A stretch of 64,000 bases of DNA, taken from assembly GCA_024276075.1 (NCBI GenBank), contig JAJRXX010000003.1, positions 1 through 64,000 on the forward strand, given 5' to 3'. Position numbers and translations under genes: made by a program. Under the pieces are notes generated by a model. The model was not told the origin of the DNA. It searched no databases and was given only the letters and a program-made list of their open reading frames with translations. Positions within the stretch are counted from its first letter, which is position 1, and each line of letters opens with the position of its first letter. Of the stretch, positions 41,770 to 53,935 are shown piece after piece. Source of the stretch: Planctomycetota bacterium. Its GTDB lineage: Bacteria; Planctomycetota; Phycisphaerae; Phycisphaerales; Phycisphaeraceae.

Positions 41770-42003
41770 TTGACAGACAGCCTATTGAACATCATCAGGC
41801 AATCGGGGGACACGCATGTGGGTCAAACGCTCACCCGTCTGGCGCGTCTGGCAACAGCGGCACATCGGTATGAGGCAACCCGTCGGCTCGCCAACCAGGT
41901 TGTGCATCACCCGCTTAAACAGACTCATGCTGATGATTCATCATCCGTAGTTCATCTGTCCCGCACGGATGCGGGCACCGTCCACAAGGAGGTGGACCGA
42001 TGA
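41770..42003 (+). CDS. small ORF translationally coupled to flgF
   Basis: A 77-residue ORF from the TTG at 41770, preceded by GGAAAGG at the right distance. It ends with TGA overlapping the flgF ATG by four bases. A longer frame opens at 41647. The sequence MTDSLLNIIRQSGDTHVGQT is helical, then rich in Arg/His/Ala and polar. It does not match FlgM or another flagellar protein I know. The overlap and Shine-Dalgarno argue for translation; it may be a small coupling leader or an unrecognised flagellar protein. Confidence 0.45.
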   Translation: MTDSLLNIIRQSGDTHVGQTLTRLARLATAAHRYEATRRLANQVVHHPLKQTHADDSSSVVHLSRTDAGTVHKEVDR

Positions 42004-42785
42004 ATTACGGCTTGTATCTTTCCGCTTCGGGCGTCCTGACGAGTATGTATCGCCAGGACGTCTTTGCCAACAATCTGGCGAACGTGAATACGACCGGCTT
42101 TAAGGTCGATCTGCCCGCGGTTCGCCAGCGAGACCCCGAATCGACCGAGAACAGCTTCGGCTCCGACGTGAGCAAACGCCTACTGGATCGTCTGGGCGGC
42201 GGTGTCTTGGCGGGCCCGCAGCGCATCAGCTTTTCGCCCAGCTCACTGCAAAAGACCGGCGCACCGCTCGACGTGGCTATTGATTCGCCCCAAGCTTTCT
42301 TTGCGATCAGCGCGCAAGACCCCGGTGAGGAGACACCGAATATCCGGCTGACGCGTGACGGGCGATTTAGCCGTAACGAAGATGGGAACCTGGTCACGCT
42401 GGCGGGCGGCCACCGCGTGCTCGATGTCAACGACCAACCCATCGTGCTCCAGGACGGCGATAACGTCACCATCGACACGGCGGGCAGGATATTCCAGGCT
42501 GATGAGCAGATCGCTCAGATACAGGTCACCGGCGTGTCTGACACGAGCCGGCTAGTTAAACACGGGCAGAGCCTGTTCCGCTTCGACGGGAAAGAGGACC
42601 TGCGCGTGCCTGCAAAGATTACTTCGGTGCGACCAGGCTACCTCGAAGCCAGCGGCACCGATCCGATCAAGACGCTCATGAAACTTATATCCGCGACCAA
42701 GTCGGTCACCGGCAACGGCAACATGATCCGCTACCACGATCTGATGATGGACCGCGCGGTCAACGTGCTGGGCCGTGTGTCGTAA
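42000..42785 (+). CDS. flgF: flagellar basal-body rod protein FlgF
   Basis: A 261-residue proximal/distal-rod component. The N-terminal rod signature ANNLANVNTTGFKVDLPAV and the C-terminal D0 helix (LMKLISATKSVTGNGNMIRYHDLMMDRAVNVLG) are complete, with the FlgE/F/G-like central strand LDVAIDSPQAFFAIS. It is more divergent than the following FlgG and shorter, which fits FlgF; FlgG paralogy is an alternative. It starts inside the stop of the preceding small ORF and has a GGAGGTGG ribosome binding site. Confidence 0.85.
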   Translation: MNYGLYLSASGVLTSMYRQDVFANNLANVNTTGFKVDLPAVRQRDPESTENSFGSDVSKRLLDRLGGGVLAGPQRISFSPSSLQKTGAPLDVAIDSPQAFFAISAQDPGEETPNIRLTRDGRFSRNEDGNLVTLAGGHRVLDVNDQPIVLQDGDNVTIDTAGRIFQADEQIAQIQVTGVSDTSRLVKHGQSLFRFDGKEDLRVPAKITSVRPGYLEASGTDPIKTLMKLISATKSVTGNGNMIRYHDLMMDRAVNVLGRVS

Positions 42786-42843: not shown

Positions 42844-43653
42844 ATGGCGGTATCCGCTCTACACTCCGCTGCCACCGGCCTATCGGCGCTTTCGACTGAA
42901 ATCGATATCGTCGCCAACAACCTGGCCAACGTGAATACCACCGGCTTTAAGTCTTCCCGTGCTAATTTTGAGGACCTGCTCTACCAGCAGAAAGCACAAC
43001 CCGGCGTGGAGAACGCCAACGGCGACCAGCGCCCCGCGGGCATCTTCGTCGGGCTGGGCACACGTATCAGCAATACACAATTCGACTTCACCACCGGGTC
43101 GCCTGTCGACACGGGCAGGGACCTTGATCTGATGATCGACGGCAACGGGTTCTTCCAGGTAAGCGTGTTGCCCGAGATTGGTAACGGGATTGGCTACACG
43201 CGAGCGGGCAATTTCTTCGTCAACCGCGACGGTGAGGTCGTGCTGGGCAATTCCCAGGGCCCGCGTCTCGAGCCTCCTATTACCGTGCCCACGGACGCGC
43301 TGCGCATCGAGGTGAGCGCGGATGGTAATGTCTTCGCGTTCCTGCCCGCTCAGGTCGATCCCGCCAACCTCGGTCAGATTCAGCTTGCCAGCTTCGTTAA
43401 CCCCAACGGGCTGCAGTCGATCGGCGGGAACTTGTACATCGAGTCCACGGCATCCGGCCCCCCGATCCAGGGCAACCCGGGCGAGGGGCAATTCGGATCG
43501 ATCTTGCAGCGGTTTCTCGAGTCGTCAAACGTCGACCCGGTCAAGGAACTCGTGGCGCTGATCAAGACCCAGCGTGCCTTTGAGATGAACAGTCAAACGA
43601 TACAGGCAGCCGACCAGGCGCTGCAGGTCATCGGCAACCTCAGGCGGTTCTAA
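42844..43653 (+). CDS. flgG: flagellar distal rod protein FlgG
   Basis: A 269-residue FlgG. The N-terminus has ANNLANVNTTGFKSSRANFEDLLYQ and the central IDGNGFFQVSVLPE; the C-terminal helix SSNVDPVKELVALIKTQRAFEMNSQTIQAADQALQVIGNLRR is typical. It forms the distal rod passing through the P and L rings, whose genes follow. Spacing to flgF is 58 bp, to flgA 7 bp. Confidence 0.95.
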   Translation: MAVSALHSAATGLSALSTEIDIVANNLANVNTTGFKSSRANFEDLLYQQKAQPGVENANGDQRPAGIFVGLGTRISNTQFDFTTGSPVDTGRDLDLMIDGNGFFQVSVLPEIGNGIGYTRAGNFFVNRDGEVVLGNSQGPRLEPPITVPTDALRIEVSADGNVFAFLPAQVDPANLGQIQLASFVNPNGLQSIGGNLYIESTASGPPIQGNPGEGQFGSILQRFLESSNVDPVKELVALIKTQRAFEMNSQTIQAADQALQVIGNLRRF

Positions 43654-43660
43654 ATAAACC

Positions 43661-44788
43661 ATGAACACTAACCATCACAACAACACGATCAATACCCCGC
43701 TGGTCCGGCTGAGCCTGCTGATTTTTGTGATCGTCATGATGATATTCACCGTCGCCACGATCGCTGAGGGACAAACGGGCCCGAGCATCCGGCTACACGA
43801 TCAGGCTCACGTCGATGGCGACAAGGTTCGGCTGCGTAATGTGGCTGACCTCCAAGGCTCGGCTGCCGAAGTACTGGGGGATACCTTGATCGCGACCCTG
43901 AGTCCCAAGGAGCGTGAGACCACGGTGACCATCAACGCGGTGCGCAACGCTCTCACGGATCACAGCGTTAATTGGGGCATGGTTACGCTGCGCGGCTATG
44001 CTCGGTGTCTTGTGCGTCGCGCCGTCGATGAGCCGACATCGACCACAACGCCGGGGCCCCCCGTAATCGCTAACCCAATCGAAGAGGTCGGGCTGGACTC
44101 TGCCATAACGCTGCGTGACCGGGTAATCCAAATCATTGAGCAATACGCCCAGGTCAACCGCCAACAGTTGCGGATTACGTTCAACAAAAAGGATGGCGAC
44201 ACGCTGGCTCTGAATACTTGGGAGGACCGTTACGAGTTCGAACCGTTGGCGGCAGCACCCTACGGACGCGTGCCTATCGTCATCCGCCGATACCGCGACG
44301 GGCGACTGGTCCAGACGTACCGCGTCACGGCTGACGTAGTGAGGCGGTACATGGCGGTGACCGTCGTCAACTCCATGGGCCGTGGTCAGACCTTCGCCCC
44401 GGGCGACGTCGAAATCCGTGAGGTCTTCCTCGATAACAACGCGGACAAACCCATTACAAACCTGTCGCAGGTAATCGGCCAAACGGCTGGATCAGTCTTG
44501 CGTACCGGATCGGCAGTGTTTGCGCAACATCTGCGTTCACCGCTTATGGTCCGCAGGGGTGAGTTGGTCACGGTGCGATTTATCTCCGGCAATCTGGTGG
44601 TGAAGACCGTCGGCAGAGCGACGGAAGACGGGGTTATGGATCAGATGATCCAGATGCGCAACAACCGATCACGCGATACCTATCTCGCTCGCGTCACGGG
44701 TCCACAACAGGCGATGGCAACCGATTCGGGCCCCGCGGGCACATCCGTTGCCAATACGCCTAGACACCACAGCGGGAGAAAACCGTGA
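43661..44788 (+). CDS. flgA: flagellar P-ring assembly chaperone FlgA
   Basis: A 375-residue periplasmic protein. It has a hydrophobic N-terminal signal (LLIFVIVMMIFTVATIAEGQ), a long N-terminal region of low similarity, and a C-terminal SAF/FlgA domain (about residues 225-350, MAVTVVNSMGRGQTFAPGDVE...IGQTAGSVLRTGSAV). FlgA assists FlgI polymerisation into the P ring. It is longer than enterobacterial FlgA (~220) because of the N-terminal region. It ends with GTGA, overlapping the flgH start. Confidence 0.85.
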   Translation: MNTNHHNNTINTPLVRLSLLIFVIVMMIFTVATIAEGQTGPSIRLHDQAHVDGDKVRLRNVADLQGSAAEVLGDTLIATLSPKERETTVTINAVRNALTDHSVNWGMVTLRGYARCLVRRAVDEPTSTTTPGPPVIANPIEEVGLDSAITLRDRVIQIIEQYAQVNRQQLRITFNKKDGDTLALNTWEDRYEFEPLAAAPYGRVPIVIRRYRDGRLVQTYRVTADVVRRYMAVTVVNSMGRGQTFAPGDVEIREVFLDNNADKPITNLSQVIGQTAGSVLRTGSAVFAQHLRSPLMVRRGELVTVRFISGNLVVKTVGRATEDGVMDQMIQMRNNRSRDTYLARVTGPQQAMATDSGPAGTSVANTPRHHSGRKP

Positions 44789-45510
44789 CATACAGACATT
44801 TGCAATTGGGATTCGTGATCGCTGCTGTCGTATCCGGTGGCGGGTTTGCGTATGGGCAGAGTTCGTCGCTTTACGTCAGCGAAAACACCTCGACCCCCCG
44901 GCCGTTGATCTCGATCAACGGCGTGCCCGATCGCCTATCTCCTCAGATCGCACAGGTAAGCATGACGGCTGTGCGCCTGCCCGAGCCTCGTGAGTTCACG
45001 ATCAACGACCTGGTCACGATCGTTGTGCGTGAATCGACCGAAAGCGAATCGGAGAGCGAACTCGAAACCAAAAAGAGGGCCACGCTCAAGGCCCTGCTCG
45101 CCGCGTTTCCCAATTTTCAATTAAACAAGCTGGCTCAACTACAGCTTGGCCAATCGACCCTCAATGACGGAGAACCTGAATTTGACCTCACGGTCAACAA
45201 CAGATTTTTGAGCGAAGGCACATACGATCGCTCAGACTCCTTCACCACCCGGATCACGGCCAGGATTATCGACATCAAGCCCAACGGCACGTTCGTTCTC
45301 GAGGCCAGGAAATTCATAAGCAGCGACGGTGAGAGCCTGAACATCATCCTGACCGGTACCTGCCGCAAAGAGGATGTCGCCTCGGATAATACGATCTTGT
45401 CCACGCAGATTTACGACATGAGACTCGTTAAGGAGCACGAAGGCGAGGTCCGCGATGGTGCCAAGAAAGGCCTGCTGACCAAATTCTTTGAATTGCTTTT
45501 TAACTTCTGA
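44785..45510 (+). CDS. flgH: flagellar L-ring protein FlgH, without a lipobox cysteine
   Basis: A 241-residue FlgH forming the outer-membrane ring. It has the conserved central segment FTINDLVTIVVRESTESESESE and the C-terminal beta region, with GTFVLEARKFISSDGE. The start is GTG in a four-base overlap with flgA. The signal ends VSGGGFAYGQSS and has no Cys; classical FlgH is a lipoprotein. So either this FlgH is cleaved by signal peptidase I or it is anchored differently. This presence of FlgH implies an outer membrane. Confidence 0.88.
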   Translation: MTYRHLQLGFVIAAVVSGGGFAYGQSSSLYVSENTSTPRPLISINGVPDRLSPQIAQVSMTAVRLPEPREFTINDLVTIVVRESTESESESELETKKRATLKALLAAFPNFQLNKLAQLQLGQSTLNDGEPEFDLTVNNRFLSEGTYDRSDSFTTRITARIIDIKPNGTFVLEARKFISSDGESLNIILTGTCRKEDVASDNTILSTQIYDMRLVKEHEGEVRDGAKKGLLTKFFELLFNF

Positions 45511-45558
45511 CCATTGCTTAGCTGGCGCCCACCCACACGGGTGAGCAAGGATTAAATC

Positions 45559-46638
45559 ATGCTTCATCGCGGCACCATACTAACCCTGACCACCGTACTG
45601 ACGCTGAGCTTGACGGCTGGGGCTGCGGGCGTCCAGATCCAGGACCTGGTGCGCATTAAAGGGTCGGAATCAAACAAGCTAATCGGCATCGGCCTGGTGG
45701 TGGGCCTTCAGGGCACCGGTGACGGCGGAAAATTCCTGCCCGCCATGCGCCCGCTCACAGCGGTGATCCAACAGCTTATCGATCCAAACACTGTCGCGGG
45801 TGAGTTAGCCGACGCCAAAAACGTCGCGCTCGTGGCGCTGTCGGCGACGCTGCCGACTGTGGGCGTGCGTGAGGGAGACCGCGTCGACGTGCACATCAGC
45901 GCCATCGGCCCCGCCAAAAGCCTGGCCGGCGGAAGGCTCTTTACGATTCCCATGACGGGCCCCCTGCCCGGCTCGCCTATCTTCGCTTTTGCGGAAGGCG
46001 CAATCACCATTGAAAACTCCGACATCCTCACCGTGGGTCTGGTCAAGAAAGGCGCTCAACTCACGCGCGACGTGCTGACCAGTAGCCTCGATTCCGCGGG
46101 ACGGCTCACACTCGTTATCGACGACACACACGCCTCGTGGCCGACCGCGAACAATTTGGCCAATCTCATCAACGGCGTCATGGCGCCGGAAGGCGAGATA
46201 TTGGCGATGGCGTTTGATCAGAAAAATATTGTGATCCGAGTCCCCAAATACGAGCAGTCCGATCCCGCAGCGTTTATCAGCCAAGTCCTTCGATCGTTTG
46301 TCGACCCGTCGCAGATCAGCACCGGTGCCCGCGTGGTGATAAACGATCGCACCGGCACAATCGTCGTCAGCGGAGACGTGCAGGTCTCGCCGGTGATCAT
46401 CTCGCACAAAGGCCTCACGATCACGACCATCACGCCACCAATCCAACCGACCGCCCAAAACCCGATTCAGGACGCGGCTGGTTTCGTATCGATCGACCCC
46501 AGTTCCATTGGCGGGGCACAACTGGCAGACCTGTTGACTGCATTTAACCAGCTAAAAGTCGATGCCGCTGACCGTATCGCCATCGTGAAGGAGATACACC
46601 GCAGCGGCAAACTGCACGCACAATTGATTGTGGAGTAA
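45559..46638 (+). CDS. flgI: flagellar P-ring protein FlgI
   Basis: A 359-residue periplasmic ring protein of normal length. After a signal peptide (TLTTVLTLSLTAGAAGV) comes the family start VQIQDLVRIKGSESNKLIGIGLVVGLQGTGDGGK. The middle part, with RVDVHISAIGPAKSLAGGRL, and the end LLTAFNQLKVDAADRIAIVKEIHRSGKLHAQL are also classic. It sits directly after flgH and before the rod-binding protein, the standard order. Confidence 0.95.
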   Translation: MLHRGTILTLTTVLTLSLTAGAAGVQIQDLVRIKGSESNKLIGIGLVVGLQGTGDGGKFLPAMRPLTAVIQQLIDPNTVAGELADAKNVALVALSATLPTVGVREGDRVDVHISAIGPAKSLAGGRLFTIPMTGPLPGSPIFAFAEGAITIENSDILTVGLVKKGAQLTRDVLTSSLDSAGRLTLVIDDTHASWPTANNLANLINGVMAPEGEILAMAFDQKNIVIRVPKYEQSDPAAFISQVLRSFVDPSQISTGARVVINDRTGTIVVSGDVQVSPVIISHKGLTITTITPPIQPTAQNPIQDAAGFVSIDPSSIGGAQLADLLTAFNQLKVDAADRIAIVKEIHRSGKLHAQLIVE

Positions 46639-46688
46639 TCGCACTGGTCTCCAATGAGAGCGACCACAACCCTGGTTTGGAAACAGAC

Positions 46689-47072
46689 ATGAACATATCA
46701 ATCCCCACCGTAACGACGACACAGCTCGCAAGCCCACTGACATCTGGGTCGGTGGACACGACGCCGTTCGCGCATCTGCTGTCACCCATAGACACGGCGA
46801 CCGACCGCGTCGCCCAATCAAAAGAAGAACAAGTACACGAAGCCGCCCAGGCATTGGTCGCGTCCACATTGATCAAGCCGCTATTGGCACAGGCACGCAA
46901 AGACCCGTTCCGCACCGACCTGTTCCACGGCGGATTTGCCGAAGACACCTTCGGCGCTCAGCTCGATTCTATCGTAGCTGAACAGATCACAGGCGCGACC
47001 AACCTATCAATCGTCGAGGCGATCTACGACCGCATCCTGAACACGGGCGGAAAGGTGGACACCCATGGATAA
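46689..47072 (+). CDS. flgJ: rod-binding protein (FlgJ N-terminal domain only)
   Basis: A 127-residue protein from ATG 46689 (TTG at 46677 also open). It holds the rod-binding Rod domain AAQALVASTLIKPLLAQARK and FAEDTFGAQLDSIVAEQI. It lacks the C-terminal muramidase domain of gamma-proteobacterial FlgJ, as is usual in many phyla; a separate hydrolase must then open the peptidoglycan. It overlaps flgN by eight bases. Confidence 0.85.
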   Translation: MNISIPTVTTTQLASPLTSGSVDTTPFAHLLSPIDTATDRVAQSKEEQVHEAAQALVASTLIKPLLAQARKDPFRTDLFHGGFAEDTFGAQLDSIVAEQITGATNLSIVEAIYDRILNTGGKVDTHG

Positions 47073-47568
47073 GCAACTGGCTCGTCTCGAAACGTTAATT
47101 ATTCAACAGACATCCGCCCACGAACGGCTGCTGTCGCTGCTGGAACATAAGCGAGAATCGCTGCGTACCGCTGACCGCGATCAGATGACACGGTGCACCG
47201 AGCAGGAAAACCTGGTGGTGCAGGAGATCAGTGAATTAGAAAAGGAACGGCTGGGACTCGTGGGCGAGCTCACGCTAATCGTCGATCCGTCGGCGAAGGC
47301 ACCCATGCGTCTGGCCGAGCTAGCACAACAGTTAGACGAGCCCGGCCGGGGACGTCTGCTGGTCCTGCGAAGCCAACTGCTTGACCGAATGAAGCAGGTG
47401 CAGCGCGAAACCGCGGTGGTCAAGCGTGCGACCGAATCGGTCGTGCGTCACATGCAGGGATTATTCCAGATGGTCGGCAACGCGGTGGGCAACGGCGGCG
47501 TTTACAGCCAACGCGGCGCGCCGCCTCAACACGTTTTAGCAGTTAATACATTTAACGCCACAGCTTAG
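47065..47568 (+). CDS. flgN: FlgN-type flagellar export chaperone
   Basis: A 167-residue, strongly helical protein with heptad-like Leu/Glu spacing (LARLETLIIQQTSAHERLLSLLEHKRESL). It resembles FlgN, the cytoplasmic chaperone for hook-filament junction proteins. It lies immediately before flgK and flgL, its usual clients. Sequence similarity in this family is low, so the call leans on position, size and helicity. Confidence 0.8.
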   Translation: MDKQLARLETLIIQQTSAHERLLSLLEHKRESLRTADRDQMTRCTEQENLVVQEISELEKERLGLVGELTLIVDPSAKAPMRLAELAQQLDEPGRGRLLVLRSQLLDRMKQVQRETAVVKRATESVVRHMQGLFQMVGNAVGNGGVYSQRGAPPQHVLAVNTFNATA

Positions 47569-47646
47569 ATGACTCGTTACGCACGCCGGCAATGAGTATT
47601 CACACCTGACAACGAAAACCCGCATCGGCTACACGGACACGACACC

Positions 47647-49353
47647 ATGGGTTTGAGCAGCGCATTACAGATCGGGCGAACGGGGTTGCTCGCCAGCCAG
47701 ACGGCATTGGAGGTCACGGGCAACAACCTGGCGAATATCGCCACACCCGGATACCACCGCCAATCTGTCGTCCTCTCGTCGGCGCGACCCAATGAGGTGC
47801 AGCGGGGTATATTTCTGGGGCAGGGTGTCGAGGTCCAGAAGATCGTGCGTAACGTGAACGAGGCGCTGGAAAACCGCATCCGAAACAGTGTCGCCGACCA
47901 GTCTTATTCCCTCGCTAGGGAGGAAGTCCTTTCGCAGATCGAGGCGATTCAAAATGAGCTGTCCGACATCGACCTGACCACGCGCCTGAACAATCTCTTC
48001 AACGCGTTCAGTGAATTGGCTAATACGCCACTGGACAATTCCGTGCGCACGGTCGTCGTCCAGGAAGCGCAAACGCTCGCCACCTACGCCAATAATCTCC
48101 GCGCCGACTTGACCACCCAACGCACGCAGGTCGATGCGACACTGGGTGACGCGGTTAAGTCTGCGGACGACCTGCTGACACGGATCGCTCAGATCAACCT
48201 GGAGATCGTCAAAACGGAAGCCGGTGCGGGCGGCGCGCACGGCCTGCGTGACGAGCGGGATTCGCTGCTGGCGGAACTATCCGGGTTCATTGATATATCC
48301 ACCGTCGAGCAAACCAACGGAGCGGTAGACGTATTCGTCGGGTCGCTGCCAGTCGTTTTAGGCAACACGAGCCGCGGTATTGAGCTGCGCACGCAGACGG
48401 TCAACAATCAGCCTATCGTCGAGGTGGTCATCAAAGACGATAAGAGCTTGCTTCAGCCAACTTCGGGTCAAATTGCAGCACTGCTCGACAGCCGAACGCA
48501 AGACGTCGACAACGCGATCAACACGCTCGACAACTTTGCCGCCAGCTTGATCTTCGAGGTGAACCGCGTGCACAGCCAGGGGCAGGGCCCCAAACCGTTT
48601 ACCTCCATCACCGGCGCCACGCAGGTCGCCGACCCGACGCTGGCGTTGAACGACCCCAATGCCGGGCTGGACTTCATACCGACGCACGGCAGCTTCCAGG
48701 TCCATGTCACACAGAAGTCAACGGGTCAGCGCATCTCAACCGTTATTAACATCGACCTCGATGGCATCAATCCAGCTACAGACACCACGCTTAATAGCCT
48801 CGCCACAACCGTCGGAGGCGTTGCCAATATCAACGCTTCCGTAACCACCGACGGCAGGCTACAGATATCTAGCGTCACGAATGATTTTGAGATCACCTTC
48901 AGCGACGATTCGAGCGGTACGCTCGCGGCACTGGGGATCAATACCTTTTTCACGGGTAAGGATGCCTTCGACATCCAGGTTAATAGCGTGGTATCGCAGG
49001 ACCCAGGCAGGATTAACACCGCGCTGGGACACGTCCCGGGAGATAACCAAACCGCCTTGGCGATCGCAGCGCTGCGAGATCAGGGCGTCACCACGACAAA
49101 CGGCGTGAGCCTCACCGAGTTCTGGAACAAACATATCCAGGACTATGCGGTGCGTACCGCACAGACTCAGCAGCAACTCGATGCTGACACGATCGTCCGT
49201 CAAAACCTCGAAGCCAACCAACAAGCGATCAGCGGCGTCAACGCCGACGAAGAGGCGATCAACCTCTTGATCTTTCAGCGCGCATTCCAGGGCAGCGCAC
49301 GGTTTATAAGCGTCGTGGACCAGTTGCTCGAAACGTTGATGGCATTGGTATAG
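47647..49353 (+). CDS. flgK: flagellar hook-associated protein FlgK (HAP1)
   Basis: A 568-residue FlgK. The N-terminal D0/D1 part is classic (SALQIGRTGLLASQTALEVT, NNLANIATPGYHRQSVVL). The C-terminal helix ends VNADEEAINLLIFQRAFQGSARFISVVDQLLETLMAL. One flagellin hook-IN-like unit is seen in the middle (ending TLAALGINT, about residue 425). It caps the hook for filament growth, after FlgN. Confidence 0.94.
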   Translation: MGLSSALQIGRTGLLASQTALEVTGNNLANIATPGYHRQSVVLSSARPNEVQRGIFLGQGVEVQKIVRNVNEALENRIRNSVADQSYSLAREEVLSQIEAIQNELSDIDLTTRLNNLFNAFSELANTPLDNSVRTVVVQEAQTLATYANNLRADLTTQRTQVDATLGDAVKSADDLLTRIAQINLEIVKTEAGAGGAHGLRDERDSLLAELSGFIDISTVEQTNGAVDVFVGSLPVVLGNTSRGIELRTQTVNNQPIVEVVIKDDKSLLQPTSGQIAALLDSRTQDVDNAINTLDNFAASLIFEVNRVHSQGQGPKPFTSITGATQVADPTLALNDPNAGLDFIPTHGSFQVHVTQKSTGQRISTVINIDLDGINPATDTTLNSLATTVGGVANINASVTTDGRLQISSVTNDFEITFSDDSSGTLAALGINTFFTGKDAFDIQVNSVVSQDPGRINTALGHVPGDNQTALAIAALRDQGVTTTNGVSLTEFWNKHIQDYAVRTAQTQQQLDADTIVRQNLEANQQAISGVNADEEAINLLIFQRAFQGSARFISVVDQLLETLMALV

Positions 49354-49385
49354 CGAAAATGCCGTAGCACCACGGGTAAGAAACA

Positions 49386-51359
49386 ATGTCACAGATCAAC
49401 ACCGCCATTGGACGCGTCTCCACGTTACTGAGCAGCAACCAATTGCTGGCTCGGCTGCGCAATACACAAACCCGGCTACTCGATGTACAGGACGACATCA
49501 GCACCGGAATCAAAATTTCTCGGCCTTCCGACGCACCCTCTGATACGTCAGCGATCCTCAAGCTCCAGGGCCAACTCGAAGCCCGTCAGCAACACGAACA
49601 GAATCTGCGATTTGGCCTGACGCTGCTCAATAATACGGATCAGGGGCTGAGCGACGCGTTTAACATCGTTCTGGATGCCAAGAGCATCGCGTCAAGCCAG
49701 ATCGGGGTCGGTTCCGACACTACCACCCGCCAAGCTCAATCGGTGAACATTGACGCTCAGATACAAGAGCTTGTGAGGATCGCGAATCGAGAAATCCAGG
49801 ATATCGCCCTGTTTGGCGGACAACAAAGCACACAAACCACCGGTGCCCTTTTCGTCGAATTCCTAGGGGGCATCCAATACGTAGGCTCCACGGAAGACCT
49901 GAAAGGCGACTTCGGTCTAAGCCAACCGCTGGCGATTAATACGAACGGACAAGACGCGTTCGGCGCGCTGTCGACCCGTATCAAGGGCAGCGTCGACCTG
50001 AACCCTGGTGCCACCGCAGCGACTTTTCTCAAAGACGTCAACGGCGCCCAGGGTGTAGGTATCCGCAAGGGCTCGATCACCGTAACCGTCGGCGCGTCCT
50101 CCACCAATGTTGATTTAACCACTGCCGAAACCCTCGGTGACGTCACCACCCGCATTAACGACGCAATTACCACCCTCGGCGGCGGCGGGTCGGTCAGCGT
50201 TTCGGGATCGGGTTTCGTCGTTACGCCAGGAGGCACCACCACCACCATCAGCGACATCGGCACGGGACAAACGGCTGCCGATCTGGGCATCAACGTTTCC
50301 GCTACGGTCCCGCCAAACCTTCCTGTAGCCGGCGCTGATATCGACCCCAAACTCACCGAGTTGACGACCCTGGCTTCGCTGGGCGTGGCGGTTGACTTGG
50401 TCAACGGGCTGAAAATCACACAGGGGAACCAGACAAAAACCGCGGACTTCAGCACCGCCACCACGATTCAGGACGCGATCAATGTCATTGATCAGCTTCA
50501 ACTGGGCTTGCGTCTAGAGATCAACGCCGCCGGTACGGGTCTGGACCTGATCAGCGAGGTCAGCGGGATTGATCTTTCTATCGGTGAGAACAGTGGCGGG
50601 ACAACGGCAGGCGACTTGGGCCTACGATCATTTGGAACCGCAACCCTGCTGTCAGACTTCCAGAATGGTGTAGGTGTGACCGGCGTCACGGGCCAGGACG
50701 ACTTCGCCATTGAACTGCACAACGGAACCACGTTCAACGTCAACATCGACGGCGACGCCACGGTCTCCGACCTGCTAGCCACGATCCAGACCGCCGCCAC
50801 TGGCGCCGGCCTGACCGTTGGCACACCGGGCACAGGGGGCACCGACTTCAACGTAGGCCTGGCGCTGGACGGCAATGGTCTGACATTTGAAGACGGCACC
50901 GCAGGCGCAAGTGCCTTCCGCGTGGTACAGCTTGGCACGTCACTGGCTGCTACCCATCTGGGTATCAACACCGATGCGGGCACAGGCAACTCCATCATCG
51001 GACAAGACGTCGCGCAGGTGCGTGTCGACAGTCTTTTCACCCACATGATTAAATTACGCGACGCTTTGGTGAATGACAGCTCGACTGGCATCACTTTTGC
51101 AGGAGAAGGGTTGGAAAAGTCGCTCGACGGACTGGTCCGTATCAGAGCGACAGTCGGCGTCCGAAGCAGACAGGTTGAATCAGAACAGGAAAGGTCAGCG
51201 GAATTGAAGATTACCGAACAAACGTTTTTGAGCGAACTGAGGGACACCGACCTGACAGAAGCGATTACAAAGCTTGCACAACTGCAACAGCAGCTCGAAG
51301 CGGGCCTACTGGTCGGGTCGCAGAACCTGCAACTTAGCTTGTTGAGTTTCTTGCGCTAG
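49386..51359 (+). CDS. flgL: flagellar hook-associated protein FlgL (HAP3), oversized
   Basis: A 657-residue FlgL, roughly twice the usual ~300. The ends are normal: N-terminal LRNTQTRLLDVQDDISTGIK and C-terminal LTEAITKLAQLQQQLEAGLLVGSQNLQLSLLSFLR. Between about residues 200 and 530 lie three tandem hook-IN-like units of about 110 residues, ending AADLGINVS (~297), AGDLGLRSF (~407) and ATHLGINTD (~520). These should build exposed D2/D3-like domains at the junction. Flagellin (486 residues) is also longer than the minimal form. Confidence 0.9.
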   Translation: MSQINTAIGRVSTLLSSNQLLARLRNTQTRLLDVQDDISTGIKISRPSDAPSDTSAILKLQGQLEARQQHEQNLRFGLTLLNNTDQGLSDAFNIVLDAKSIASSQIGVGSDTTTRQAQSVNIDAQIQELVRIANREIQDIALFGGQQSTQTTGALFVEFLGGIQYVGSTEDLKGDFGLSQPLAINTNGQDAFGALSTRIKGSVDLNPGATAATFLKDVNGAQGVGIRKGSITVTVGASSTNVDLTTAETLGDVTTRINDAITTLGGGGSVSVSGSGFVVTPGGTTTTISDIGTGQTAADLGINVSATVPPNLPVAGADIDPKLTELTTLASLGVAVDLVNGLKITQGNQTKTADFSTATTIQDAINVIDQLQLGLRLEINAAGTGLDLISEVSGIDLSIGENSGGTTAGDLGLRSFGTATLLSDFQNGVGVTGVTGQDDFAIELHNGTTFNVNIDGDATVSDLLATIQTAATGAGLTVGTPGTGGTDFNVGLALDGNGLTFEDGTAGASAFRVVQLGTSLAATHLGINTDAGTGNSIIGQDVAQVRVDSLFTHMIKLRDALVNDSSTGITFAGEGLEKSLDGLVRIRATVGVRSRQVESEQERSAELKITEQTFLSELRDTDLTEAITKLAQLQQQLEAGLLVGSQNLQLSLLSFLR

Positions 51360-51368: not shown

Positions 51369-51502
51369 TGCTTGCGCGGCGGACGCGGCTATCGGCCAGT
51401 CGCCCACCCGCCCAAAATTCTGACGGCTGGATGCCGTCACCCGGGTCAAAAATACCACCGGGCGAAAATCCAGGATGGATGGCCGCATAAGGGTCTCGAA
51501 TC

Positions 51503-51949
51503 ATGATCCTCAATACAACGAGATTCGGGTCGGTACAGATCGACAACGACCGGATCATCACCTTCGCAAAAGGGCTGCTAGGGTTTGGTGAGTTCACGCG
51601 GTACGCCCTTTTGCAACCCGATGACGACAGCTATTTTTTCTGGCTGCAGTCGATCGATGCAATGGACCTGGCGTTTGTGGTGACCGATCCTCGCCTATTC
51701 GTGTCGAGCTACCGGGTCCCGTTCAAGCGTGAACAAATGGAATCGCTAGACCTGGAATCGCTAGACGATGCCGAGGTGTACGTGATCGTAAACAAACACG
51801 AGGATGTCCTGACGGGCAATCTCCAGGGGCCTTTGGTGATCAACATCGCCACGCGGATCGGTCAGCAATTGGTGTTGTCCGATCGCCGTTTCACGACACG
51901 TGTGCCGTTGGTTGAATTGTCTGTCCCCGCCGAAGCGGTGCCTGCGTAA
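51503..51949 (+). CDS. fliW: flagellar assembly factor FliW
   Basis: A 148-residue FliW. The start MILNTTRFGSVQIDNDRIIT and the conserved GLLGFGEFTRYAL plus FFWLQSIDAMDLAFVV are typical. FliW binds flagellin or, when flagellin is exported, CsrA, releasing repression of flagellin translation. Directly upstream of csrA and then the flagellin gene, so all three players are in one locus. Confidence 0.94.
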   Translation: MILNTTRFGSVQIDNDRIITFAKGLLGFGEFTRYALLQPDDDSYFFWLQSIDAMDLAFVVTDPRLFVSSYRVPFKREQMESLDLESLDDAEVYVIVNKHEDVLTGNLQGPLVINIATRIGQQLVLSDRRFTTRVPLVELSVPAEAVPA

Positions 51950-52060
51950 TCACCGCTTCCTGATCGGCGAGGCGTATCTCGCCGCCATGGGACCGACGCA
52001 CGGAAGCGTCGGCAAATAAAAGTACGGTCGGCACATCGCCACTGGTCACGTAGCCGACCC

Positions 52061-52079
52061 AGGCCCCAGGAAGGAGCCT
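52061..52079 (+). promoter_or_regulatory. possible CsrA-binding hairpin in the csrA leader
   Basis: AGGCCCC-AGGAA-GGAGCCT: a six-pair stem with one C-A mismatch and a loop containing GGA, seven bases before the csrA ATG. It includes the AGGAAGGAG ribosome binding site. This would fit autoregulation by CsrA, known in other bacteria. The stem is imperfect, so this is inference. Confidence 0.5.
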
Positions 52080-52085
52080 TGCCCC

Positions 52086-52349
52086 ATGCTTGTACTTTCC
52101 CGTCAGCGCGACGAGACGATTATCATCGGCGACAACATCGAGATTACCGTCGTCGATATCCGTGGGGAAAAGGTCCGTCTCGGCATCAACGCGCCTCGGC
52201 AAGTACAGGTACACCGCAAGGAGATTTACTCAGCGATCACACGTGAAAACACACAATCGACTCAGGTGTGTCTCAATGACCTTAATGTAGCGAACAATAA
52301 CCTGCGGCGACTAGGCAGACCCACAAAGACCACGCCGCGGAGTCAATAA
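52086..52349 (+). CDS. csrA: carbon storage/translation regulator CsrA
   Basis: An 87-residue CsrA (RsmA family), a homodimeric RNA-binding repressor recognising GGA in hairpin loops. It has the two RNA-contact regions: MLVLSRQRDETIIIGD (L4) and APRQVQVHRKEIY (R44). A ~25-residue C-terminal extension makes it longer than the ~61-75 standard. Flanked by fliW and the flagellin gene, whose leader carries a CsrA-type hairpin, so its main local target is probably flagellin mRNA. Confidence 0.95.
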   Translation: MLVLSRQRDETIIIGDNIEITVVDIRGEKVRLGINAPRQVQVHRKEIYSAITRENTQSTQVCLNDLNVANNNLRRLGRPTKTTPRSQ

Positions 52350-52454: not shown

Positions 52455-52474
52455 GACAATCAAGGAGGATTGTC
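52455..52474 (+). promoter_or_regulatory. CsrA-type hairpin enclosing the flagellin Shine-Dalgarno
   Basis: GACAATC (52455-52461) pairs perfectly with GATTGTC (52468-52474), leaving a six-base loop AAGGAG. The GGA is in the loop and the Shine-Dalgarno AAGGAGGA spans loop and stem. The ATG of the flagellin gene follows immediately at 52475. This matches the known CsrA preference for GGA in a hexaloop and predicts direct translational repression. Confidence 0.85.
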
Positions 52475-53935
52475 ATGTCTCGAATCAATACAAATGTTCC
52501 AGCACTTATTGGCCAAAATAACCTTGCGAAGTCAAACGCCGACCTACAGGTTCGGCTCCAAAGGCTTAGTACAGGTATCAAAATCAACCGCGCCGCGGAC
52601 GACCCCGCGGGTCTGATCGTCTCCGAACGACTGCGAAGCGAGATCAGCAGCATCGGCAGAGCGATCGGCAACGCCGAACGGGCGGTCAACGTCATTGCCA
52701 CCGCTGAGGGGGCGCTGTCCGAGGTCTCCGCCCTGCTCAATGACATCAAAGGACTGACCGTCGAAGCCGCTAATACCGGTGCTTTCAGTAAAGAGGAGAT
52801 CGCTGCCAACCAGCTCCAGATCGACTCGGCTGTCGCCTCGATCACCAGGATATCTAATAGCACCAGCTTCGCAGGCCTACAGATGCTAAACGGGTCTCTC
52901 GACTATCTGACCAGTGGTATCAATTCCACTCAGATACAGGATGTCAAGATATTCAATGCCAACTTCGGCACCAACACGACCATCCCGACGACGGTCGAGG
53001 TACTCGCCAGCGCTAATACCGCCCAGCTATTCATCTCCGGCAACACCACCGGTTCAACCGGAGCGCTGCTCAGCAGTGTGACGTTTGAATTACAGGGTGC
53101 TAACGGCGTTGACGTGTTGTCCTTCGTGAGCGGCACGACCCTCTCGGCGGTGGTCTTCGCTGTGAATCAGCGTAAGGACGCAACGGGTGTCTCAGCCGTC
53201 TTGGTAAGCGCCACGGATCAGACCTCAGGGCTAATCCTTAACACCACGACGTTCGGATCCGAAGCGTTTGTCAGCGTCAATAAACTCAGCGGGGGCGCCT
53301 TCTTCCAGACCTTTGATCAACAAAACGGCAGCGCCGTTAATCGCGACACCGGTACCGACGTGCTCGCGCTGGTCAACGGCAACTTGGCCCTGGGTGACGG
53401 CACCGCGATCAGCCTCCGATCCAGCACACTCAACATCCAGATGAATCTGACGGTAGCTGCGGCACAGACCCAGTCGACTTACACCTTTACGGTCACAGGC
53501 GGTGGGAGCATCTTCCAGATCGGCCCGAAGATCAACTCCAATCAGCAGGTGGGCGTCGGTATCCAGTCCGTAGCCGCAACACGCCTGGGTAACGAGACGT
53601 TAGGGTTCCTGAATACCATCATTCAGGGTGGGTCCAACAGCCTCGTCGCCGGGAAGCAACGAGAGGCGTCTCAGATCATCGACGAGGCCATTGATCAGGT
53701 CTCCACCATGAGAGGCAGACTCGGAGCGTTTGAACGCAATACGCTACAAACCACGATCCGCAGTCAACAGATCGCATTGGAAAATCTAACCGCGTCTGAG
53801 AGCTCAATCCGTGATACCGATTTTGCTGTCGAGACGTCACGGCTAACCCGAGCACAGATTCTGGTCAACGCGGGCACGTCGACACTGGCGCTGGCGAACT
53901 CGTCGGCCCAGAACGTGCTGGCACTACTGGGATAA
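52475..53935 (+). CDS. fliC: flagellin
   Basis: A 486-residue flagellin. Conserved ends: N-terminal NLAKSNADLQVRLQRLSTG and INRAADDPAGLIVSERLRSEI; C-terminal ASESSIRDTDFAVETSRLTR ... NAGTSTLALANSSAQNVLALLG. The variable central part (about residues 170-370) forms outer D2/D3 domains and is Thr/Val/Asn-rich. The last CsrA-FliW regulated step in this locus. Its leader hairpin is annotated separately. No fliD or fliS follows; the next gene is on the opposite strand. Confidence 0.96.
   Translation: MSRINTNVPALIGQNNLAKSNADLQVRLQRLSTGIKINRAADDPAGLIVSERLRSEISSIGRAIGNAERAVNVIATAEGALSEVSALLNDIKGLTVEAANTGAFSKEEIAANQLQIDSAVASITRISNSTSFAGLQMLNGSLDYLTSGINSTQIQDVKIFNANFGTNTTIPTTVEVLASANTAQLFISGNTTGSTGALLSSVTFELQGANGVDVLSFVSGTTLSAVVFAVNQRKDATGVSAVLVSATDQTSGLILNTTTFGSEAFVSVNKLSGGAFFQTFDQQNGSAVNRDTGTDVLALVNGNLALGDGTAISLRSSTLNIQMNLTVAAAQTQSTYTFTVTGGGSIFQIGPKINSNQQVGVGIQSVAATRLGNETLGFLNTIIQGGSNSLVAGKQREASQIIDEAIDQVSTMRGRLGAFERNTLQTTIRSQQIALENLTASESSIRDTDFAVETSRLTRAQILVNAGTSTLALANSSAQNVLALLG

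Follow-up and report, generated by a model that had tools for sequence, protein, structure and literature searches.

The flagellin gene of the window, i.e., the whole 64,000-nucleotide stretch analyzed, lies on the plus strand at positions 52475..53935 and encodes a protein of 486 aa with the Pfam domains Flagellin_N and Flagellin_C (PF00669/PF00700). Directly upstream, on the same strand, are fliW (51503..51949), encoding a predicted CsrA antagonist of 148 aa (Pfam FliW PF02623, E 3.6e-34), and csrA (52086..52349), encoding an 87 aa CsrA of the FliW type, with a C-terminal extension (Pfam CsrA PF02599, E 8.4e-25; NCBIfam CsrA). A sequence-only reading of this DNA had placed fliW and csrA next to flagellin, and Pfam confirms all three identities. 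The genes belong to a co-oriented flagellar cluster with the order flgF-flgG-...-flgN-flgK-flgL-fliW-csrA-flagellin. The first gene, flgF (42000..42785, plus strand), encodes a proximal rod protein; NCBIfam flgF is its best match but falls below the equivalog cut-off, with the FlgEFG subfamily above cut-off. In the plus-strand segment between flgF and fliW (42844..51359), flgG and flgL are called by NCBIfam and flgN and flgK by Pfam, and the flgA-, flgH- and flgI-like genes are placed by order and sequence only. A sigma-70 scan did not find a promoter.

The flagellin start site is preceded by the hairpin GACAATC[AAGGAG]GATTGTC (52455..52474, plus strand; loops are bracketed throughout), a predicted CsrA operator by its sequence, conservation, loop and fold. 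The arms, at 52455-52461 and 52468-52474, flank the loop AAGGAG at 52462-52467. The ATG is at 52475, so that the stem ends at position -1 with zero spacer bases; the perfect seven-pair stem first read from the letters is exact, and it abuts the flagellin ATG. The GGA sits 11 nt before the ATG and overlaps the ribosome site. Folded alone, the hairpin has a free energy of -7.1 kcal/mol (z = -4.9 versus dinucleotide shuffles), with the GGA single-stranded in the loop and an MFE frequency of 0.96, and the MFE fold of the 165-nt flagellin leader contains it. Of the 37,726 candidate start codons scanned (1.23 Mb of the genome), that of flagellin alone has a seven-pair ANGGAN hairpin at its ribosome site. 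Rfam covariance models gave no match over the hairpin and, elsewhere, sub-threshold chance matches only.

In the linked CsrA, L4 is retained, as is the VHRKE motif, which includes the equivalent of R44, a residue important in CsrA (PMC3856055). Among solved structures, this protein best matches 5dmb_D, in an alignment of residues 2-76 that reaches the C-terminal region, and FliW best matches 5dmb_A; chains A and D of 5dmb are the partners of a solved FliW-CsrA complex. FliW is predicted, from the 5dmb_A similarity alone, to bind both CsrA and flagellin. Among the relatives, FliW is found in 59 of 61 and CsrA in 61 of 61, and the fliW-csrA-flagellin linkage is conserved. The genome also encodes, on another contig, a second, divergent CsrA (G000:C33:14848-15009; L002, L014) of 66 aa, and most relatives have such a paralogue (~50 bits). 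That this paralogue, which retains L4, reads the hairpins instead of the linked CsrA is quite unlikely: it has an insertion after residue 16 and a diverged C-terminus, it is the linked protein that resembles the FliW-binding CsrA of 5dmb, and it is the linked csrA that keeps its place between fliW and flagellin.

Conservation and loop signature of the flagellin hairpin

Relatives were gathered by DNA pattern, after a FliW single-protein query of genome contigs returned none. An exact-pattern scan of one genome per species (84,980 species) gave 41 contigs, and in nearly all Planctomycetota contigs among them the element directly precedes a flagellin ATG. The exact element also precedes a flagellin ATG in one Nitrospirota MAG, the genome of which encodes FliW as well. 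In other Nitrospirota flagellins, the CANGGAGG core is mostly retained but the stems are different and shorter, which makes convergence more likely than transfer. Exact 19-mer matches away from start codons (Thalassospira L073 and L098, Deltaproteobacteria L078, Pelagimonas L094) look like chance, as an estimated ~4 are expected in 257 Gb. In a Pirellulales MAG, the CACAATCAAGGAGGATTGTC hairpin recurs on the minus strand (L087:5950-5969), directly before a gene for an 894-aa non-flagellin with a signal-like N-terminus; it may be another CsrA target or belong to the ~4 expected chance matches. A covariance model (R1, ~20 bits) was judged too short for specific genome searches and was left unused.

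In Phycisphaeraceae, the family to which the window belongs, 30 of 32 flagellin orthologues, which share 57-80% protein identity, retain the 20-nt hairpin, and the flanks are nearly random. Hairpin columns carry ~1.5-2 bits, versus mostly 0.05-0.5 bits for the 31 upstream columns. This retention, together with the uniqueness of the seven-pair case in 1.23 Mb, argues that the hairpin is not a chance feature, and it answers the case that the sequence-only reading had named against itself, namely loss of the stem next to a preserved flagellin start. One flagellin leader (G003) retains GGC[ATGGAG]GCC. Class- and phylum-wide, the arms vary, in many lineages in paired fashion (GACAAAC/GTTTGTC, TTAATC/GATTAA, TCAGTC/GACTGA, ACAAC/GTTGT, GTAATC/GATTAC and GAAATC/GATTTC), and G-U pairs are present (GACAGTC/GATTGTC). 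These are the compensatory changes that the sequence-only reading had proposed to look for. Over 90 distinct leaders, paralogues included, the stem covariation score is 0.258 versus 0.155 (sd 0.015) in shuffles, with 0/500 shuffles reaching it; kinship among the relatives inflates shuffle-based scores, so slid controls and sequence-unrelated stems weigh more than shuffle counts. Thus, the stem is maintained by covariation, more weakly for the outer pairs, which are not universal: 62.9% of cells are paired, and in some families the simple stem is weak or missing. The simple stem is absent from one genome (G036) and from one class-level family (L122/L157/L158), though csrA and fliW are present. 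G036 has lost both the flagellin and the flgF hairpins, a double loss that proves nothing, as it is a single case and ~40% of same-family genomes are without the flgF hairpin.

Several variations on the leader were seen. In sister families (L041-L044, L047, L048, L050, L055-L057), the outer flagellin stem pairs are broken, and by eye an upstream AGCC can pair with a GGCT spanning and following the start codon (AGCCACAATC..GATTGTCATGGCT), a pairing that would draw the ATG into structure. In Nitrospirota and in further Planctomycetota classes, flagellin leaders (L306, L309, L311, L139-L151) have an extra upstream GGA hairpin, e.g., GGATGC[AGGAG]GCATCC or GCCGGAC[AAGGAT]GTCCGGC, a layout like that of the two-hairpin C. 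jejuni flaA leader. The source genome itself has further flagellin-like genes (C10:19811-21334, C74:27943-29469, C74:30203-31726 and C40:40061-40882), ~45% identical, the leaders of which lack a long hairpin. It follows that strong control seems limited to the fliW-csrA-linked flagellin.

The flagellin loop is an ANGGAN hexaloop closed by a C-G pair (CANGGANG), C-AAGGAG-G in the window, and the conserved core is C-A-N-GGA-G-G, where N is any base. Among flagellin leaders, 135 of 161 show C-A-N-GGA-x-G; those with C, A and GGA in place have A at N in 73 cases, C in 35, T in 19 and G in 14. The CANGGANG hexaloop is described for high-affinity CsrA/RsmE sites (PMC4894983, PMC7652899). A protein-free hairpin masking the ribosome site, incidental or serving, e.g., as a thermosensor or translation-rate setter, would also account for a strong Shine-Dalgarno held in a self-folding stem, and AAGGAGG is a good Shine-Dalgarno. 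We regard this alternative as unlikely. Selection for a Shine-Dalgarno alone predicts otherwise than a held C and A before an N that takes all four bases, a pattern that points to a CsrA/RsmE site. In addition, hexaloop size is constant while the stems change, the same loop occurs in csrA and flgF leader hairpins away from any Shine-Dalgarno, and, of 178 ORFs sampled from the genome, only two, flagellin and flgF, have CANGGANG at the ribosome site.

In 1.23 Mb (43% of the genome), 8 ANGGAN hairpins reach 6 pairs or more, versus 13 in shuffles. Thus, they are genome-wide no commoner than expected by chance, yet three stand in the leaders of one cluster: among the 8, only those of csrA, flagellin and flgF directly precede plausible gene starts. 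Elsewhere in the studied genome, TCGAC[ATGGAG]GTCGA (L249:6169-6192), before an SMC-like gene of 1328 codons, is a weak candidate CsrA site.

Hairpins in the flgF, csrA and fliW leaders

The feature is larger than was first claimed, as the flgF and csrA leaders have hairpins of the same class. The flgF ribosome-site hairpin, GTCCAC[AAGGAG]GTGGAC (41980..41997, plus strand), is distinguished by its loop core, covariation and rarity. A second, predicted hairpin, CCCGC[ACGGAT]GCGGG (41960..41975, plus strand), lies upstream, with a GGA-to-GGA distance of 21 nt. Among relatives, the sequence of the ribosome-site stem drifts and the pairing stays, all 8 pairs having changed on both sides. Its covariation, stronger than that of the flagellin stem, is 0.521 versus 0.197 (sd 0.029) in shuffles, and slid controls reach at most 0.152. 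The upstream hexaloop hairpin is found in 17 of 30 flgF leaders, versus 0.27 in shuffles (max 2). In more distant families, the flgF element is mostly missing.

In the csrA leader, CCGACGC[ACGGAA]GCGTCGG (51993..52012, plus strand), a 7 bp hairpin in the fliW-csrA gap, is a predicted CsrA autoregulatory site. Hexaloop hairpins occur in 24 of 32 same-family csrA leaders, versus 0.47 in shuffles (max 3), and in 21 of 61 other csrA leaders, with unrelated stems, versus 0.63 expected (max 3). At the csrA ribosome site, CC[AGGAA]GG (52066..52074, plus strand) is predicted to be a weak second CsrA site; relatives mostly have CC[ANGGAA]GG. A GGAAGGAG-type element, mostly CCANGGAAGGAGCC, is found there in 31 of 32 same-family leaders, and its structure is weak in the window.

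These leaders bear on a further reading of the flagellin element, namely an operator in the DNA, palindromic and bound by a transcription factor, that overlaps the start site by accident. A perfect inverted repeat with arms near-frozen in the family would fit such an operator. RNA-level covariation is seen, however: the flgF and csrA arms are paired though unrelated in sequence, the flagellin stem includes G-U pairs, the loop is conserved besides the arms, and the position is fixed relative to the start codon. We consider a DNA operator very improbable.

The fliW leader has the family-conserved element ATCC[AGGAT]GGAT (51468..51480, plus strand), which includes CAGGAUG, a match to the CsrB repeat CAGGA(U/A/C)G (PMC7652899). 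This CCAGGAUGG element usually lies 16-21 nt before the Shine-Dalgarno GGA and folds weakly alone. No enrichment of hexaloop hairpins is seen at fliW within the family (2 of 31, versus 0.53 in shuffles, max 3).

Some same-order genomes without detectable flagellin retain adjacent fliW and csrA: L324, L325 and L327 (G051, G055, G049) and L323 and L326 (G043, G059). Three of these flagellin-less genomes have a hexaloop hairpin upstream of fliW, e.g., ACAGCC[ATGGAT]GGCTGT or CGCAGCC[ACGGAT]GGTTGCG. FliW-CsrA may be non-flagellar in those genomes, or flagellin may have been missed or left unassembled.

A predicted FliW-CsrA circuit and its precedents

The CsrA-type reading of the hairpin is upheld by its conservation, the compensatory changes, the ANGGAN loop with its free N, and the adjoining genes for FliW and a FliW-type CsrA. 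We suggest that 52455-52474 is most likely a CsrA operator of the flagellin mRNA that is relieved by FliW, with the same CsrA acting also at flgF, at csrA and possibly at fliW. The genes, the hairpins, their conservation and covariation, the loop signature and its near-exclusivity in the genome are observed; it is from these that CsrA as the binder, translational repression as the effect and FliW as the antagonist are predicted. A CsrA dimer would grip the ANGGAN hexaloop of the flagellin mRNA, covering the Shine-Dalgarno and blocking the ribosome. Export of flagellin would free FliW, which would then bind CsrA and lift the block. It is very probable that this CsrA also acts at the tandem hairpins of the flgF leader, 21 nt apart at the cluster head, and on the csrA leader, i.e., in autoregulation; fliW, through its CCAGGAUGG element, is possibly also a target. 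Since the cluster with fliW, csrA and flagellin starts at flgF, CsrA may gate this late cluster both there and a second time at flagellin. Gating at flgF would require co-transcription.

The type of mechanism is already known from B. subtilis hag and C. jejuni flaA. The C. jejuni flaA leader (PMC4894983) has ANGGA hexaloop hairpins, one of them over the ribosome site, with compensatory stem changes, there within the genus, and FliW as antagonist, as is predicted here; its GGA-GGA spacing of 21 nt is that of the two flgF hairpins. In contrast to flaA, flagellin here usually has the ribosome-site hairpin only, tandem hairpins occur at flgF instead, and csrA has hairpins of its own. The B. subtilis hag-FliW-CsrA system shares the fliW, csrA and flagellin nodes and a site over the flagellin Shine-Dalgarno, here a predicted one; it differs in having two CsrA sites in the hag leader, and flgF and csrA hairpin nodes are not described in the cited text of PMC7652899. 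For C. difficile fliC, one site over the ribosome-binding site is enough for control by CsrA (PMC11898703), so that one flagellin hairpin would be adequate here; that system belongs to another phylum and, in the cited passages, concerns the fliC leader only. In E. coli, CsrA inhibits translation of the csrA mRNA and so regulates its own gene (PMC7652899), as is predicted here, but the predicted site here is a hairpin in the fliW-csrA gap, and E. coli, as described in that text, is without FliW and uses sRNAs as antagonists.

Several observations count against the CsrA model. The flagellin stem has 7 pairs, whereas most E. coli CsrA SELEX ligands have at most 4 contiguous pairs (PMC7652899). 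Some relatives with csrA and fliW are without a simple stem, as noted above, and there is a second CsrA paralogue. The flagellin stem is also near-frozen in genomes whose flgF and csrA stems are free to vary, and for this CsrA alone is an insufficient explanation. A stem frozen nearly letter for letter over ~30 genera might be recognized not by CsrA alone but also by another sequence-specific factor, so that the element would have two ligands; we hold this to be possible, if rather doubtful. A signal for mRNA localization, processing or RNA-RNA pairing would be an example.

Planctomycetes have been said to possibly use FliW (PMC4682653), and we found no description of these Planctomycetota leaders in the open-access literature. 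New here are, besides the phylum, flgF and csrA as nodes and a flagellin stem that is nearly frozen. The FliW-CsrA flagellin checkpoint would hereby extend to Planctomycetota, with strong comparative RNA evidence. The relatives constitute a natural mutagenesis set of candidate CsrA sites, including stems of 7-9 pairs, a length not favored in SELEX. The predicted circuit is wider than the textbook loop, as CsrA would act at flgF, the head of the fliW-csrA-flagellin cluster, and on csrA itself. Thus, this group of Planctomycetota very probably tunes flagellum production by a protein-RNA brake of the Bacillus/Campylobacter type, here wider and self-controlling.
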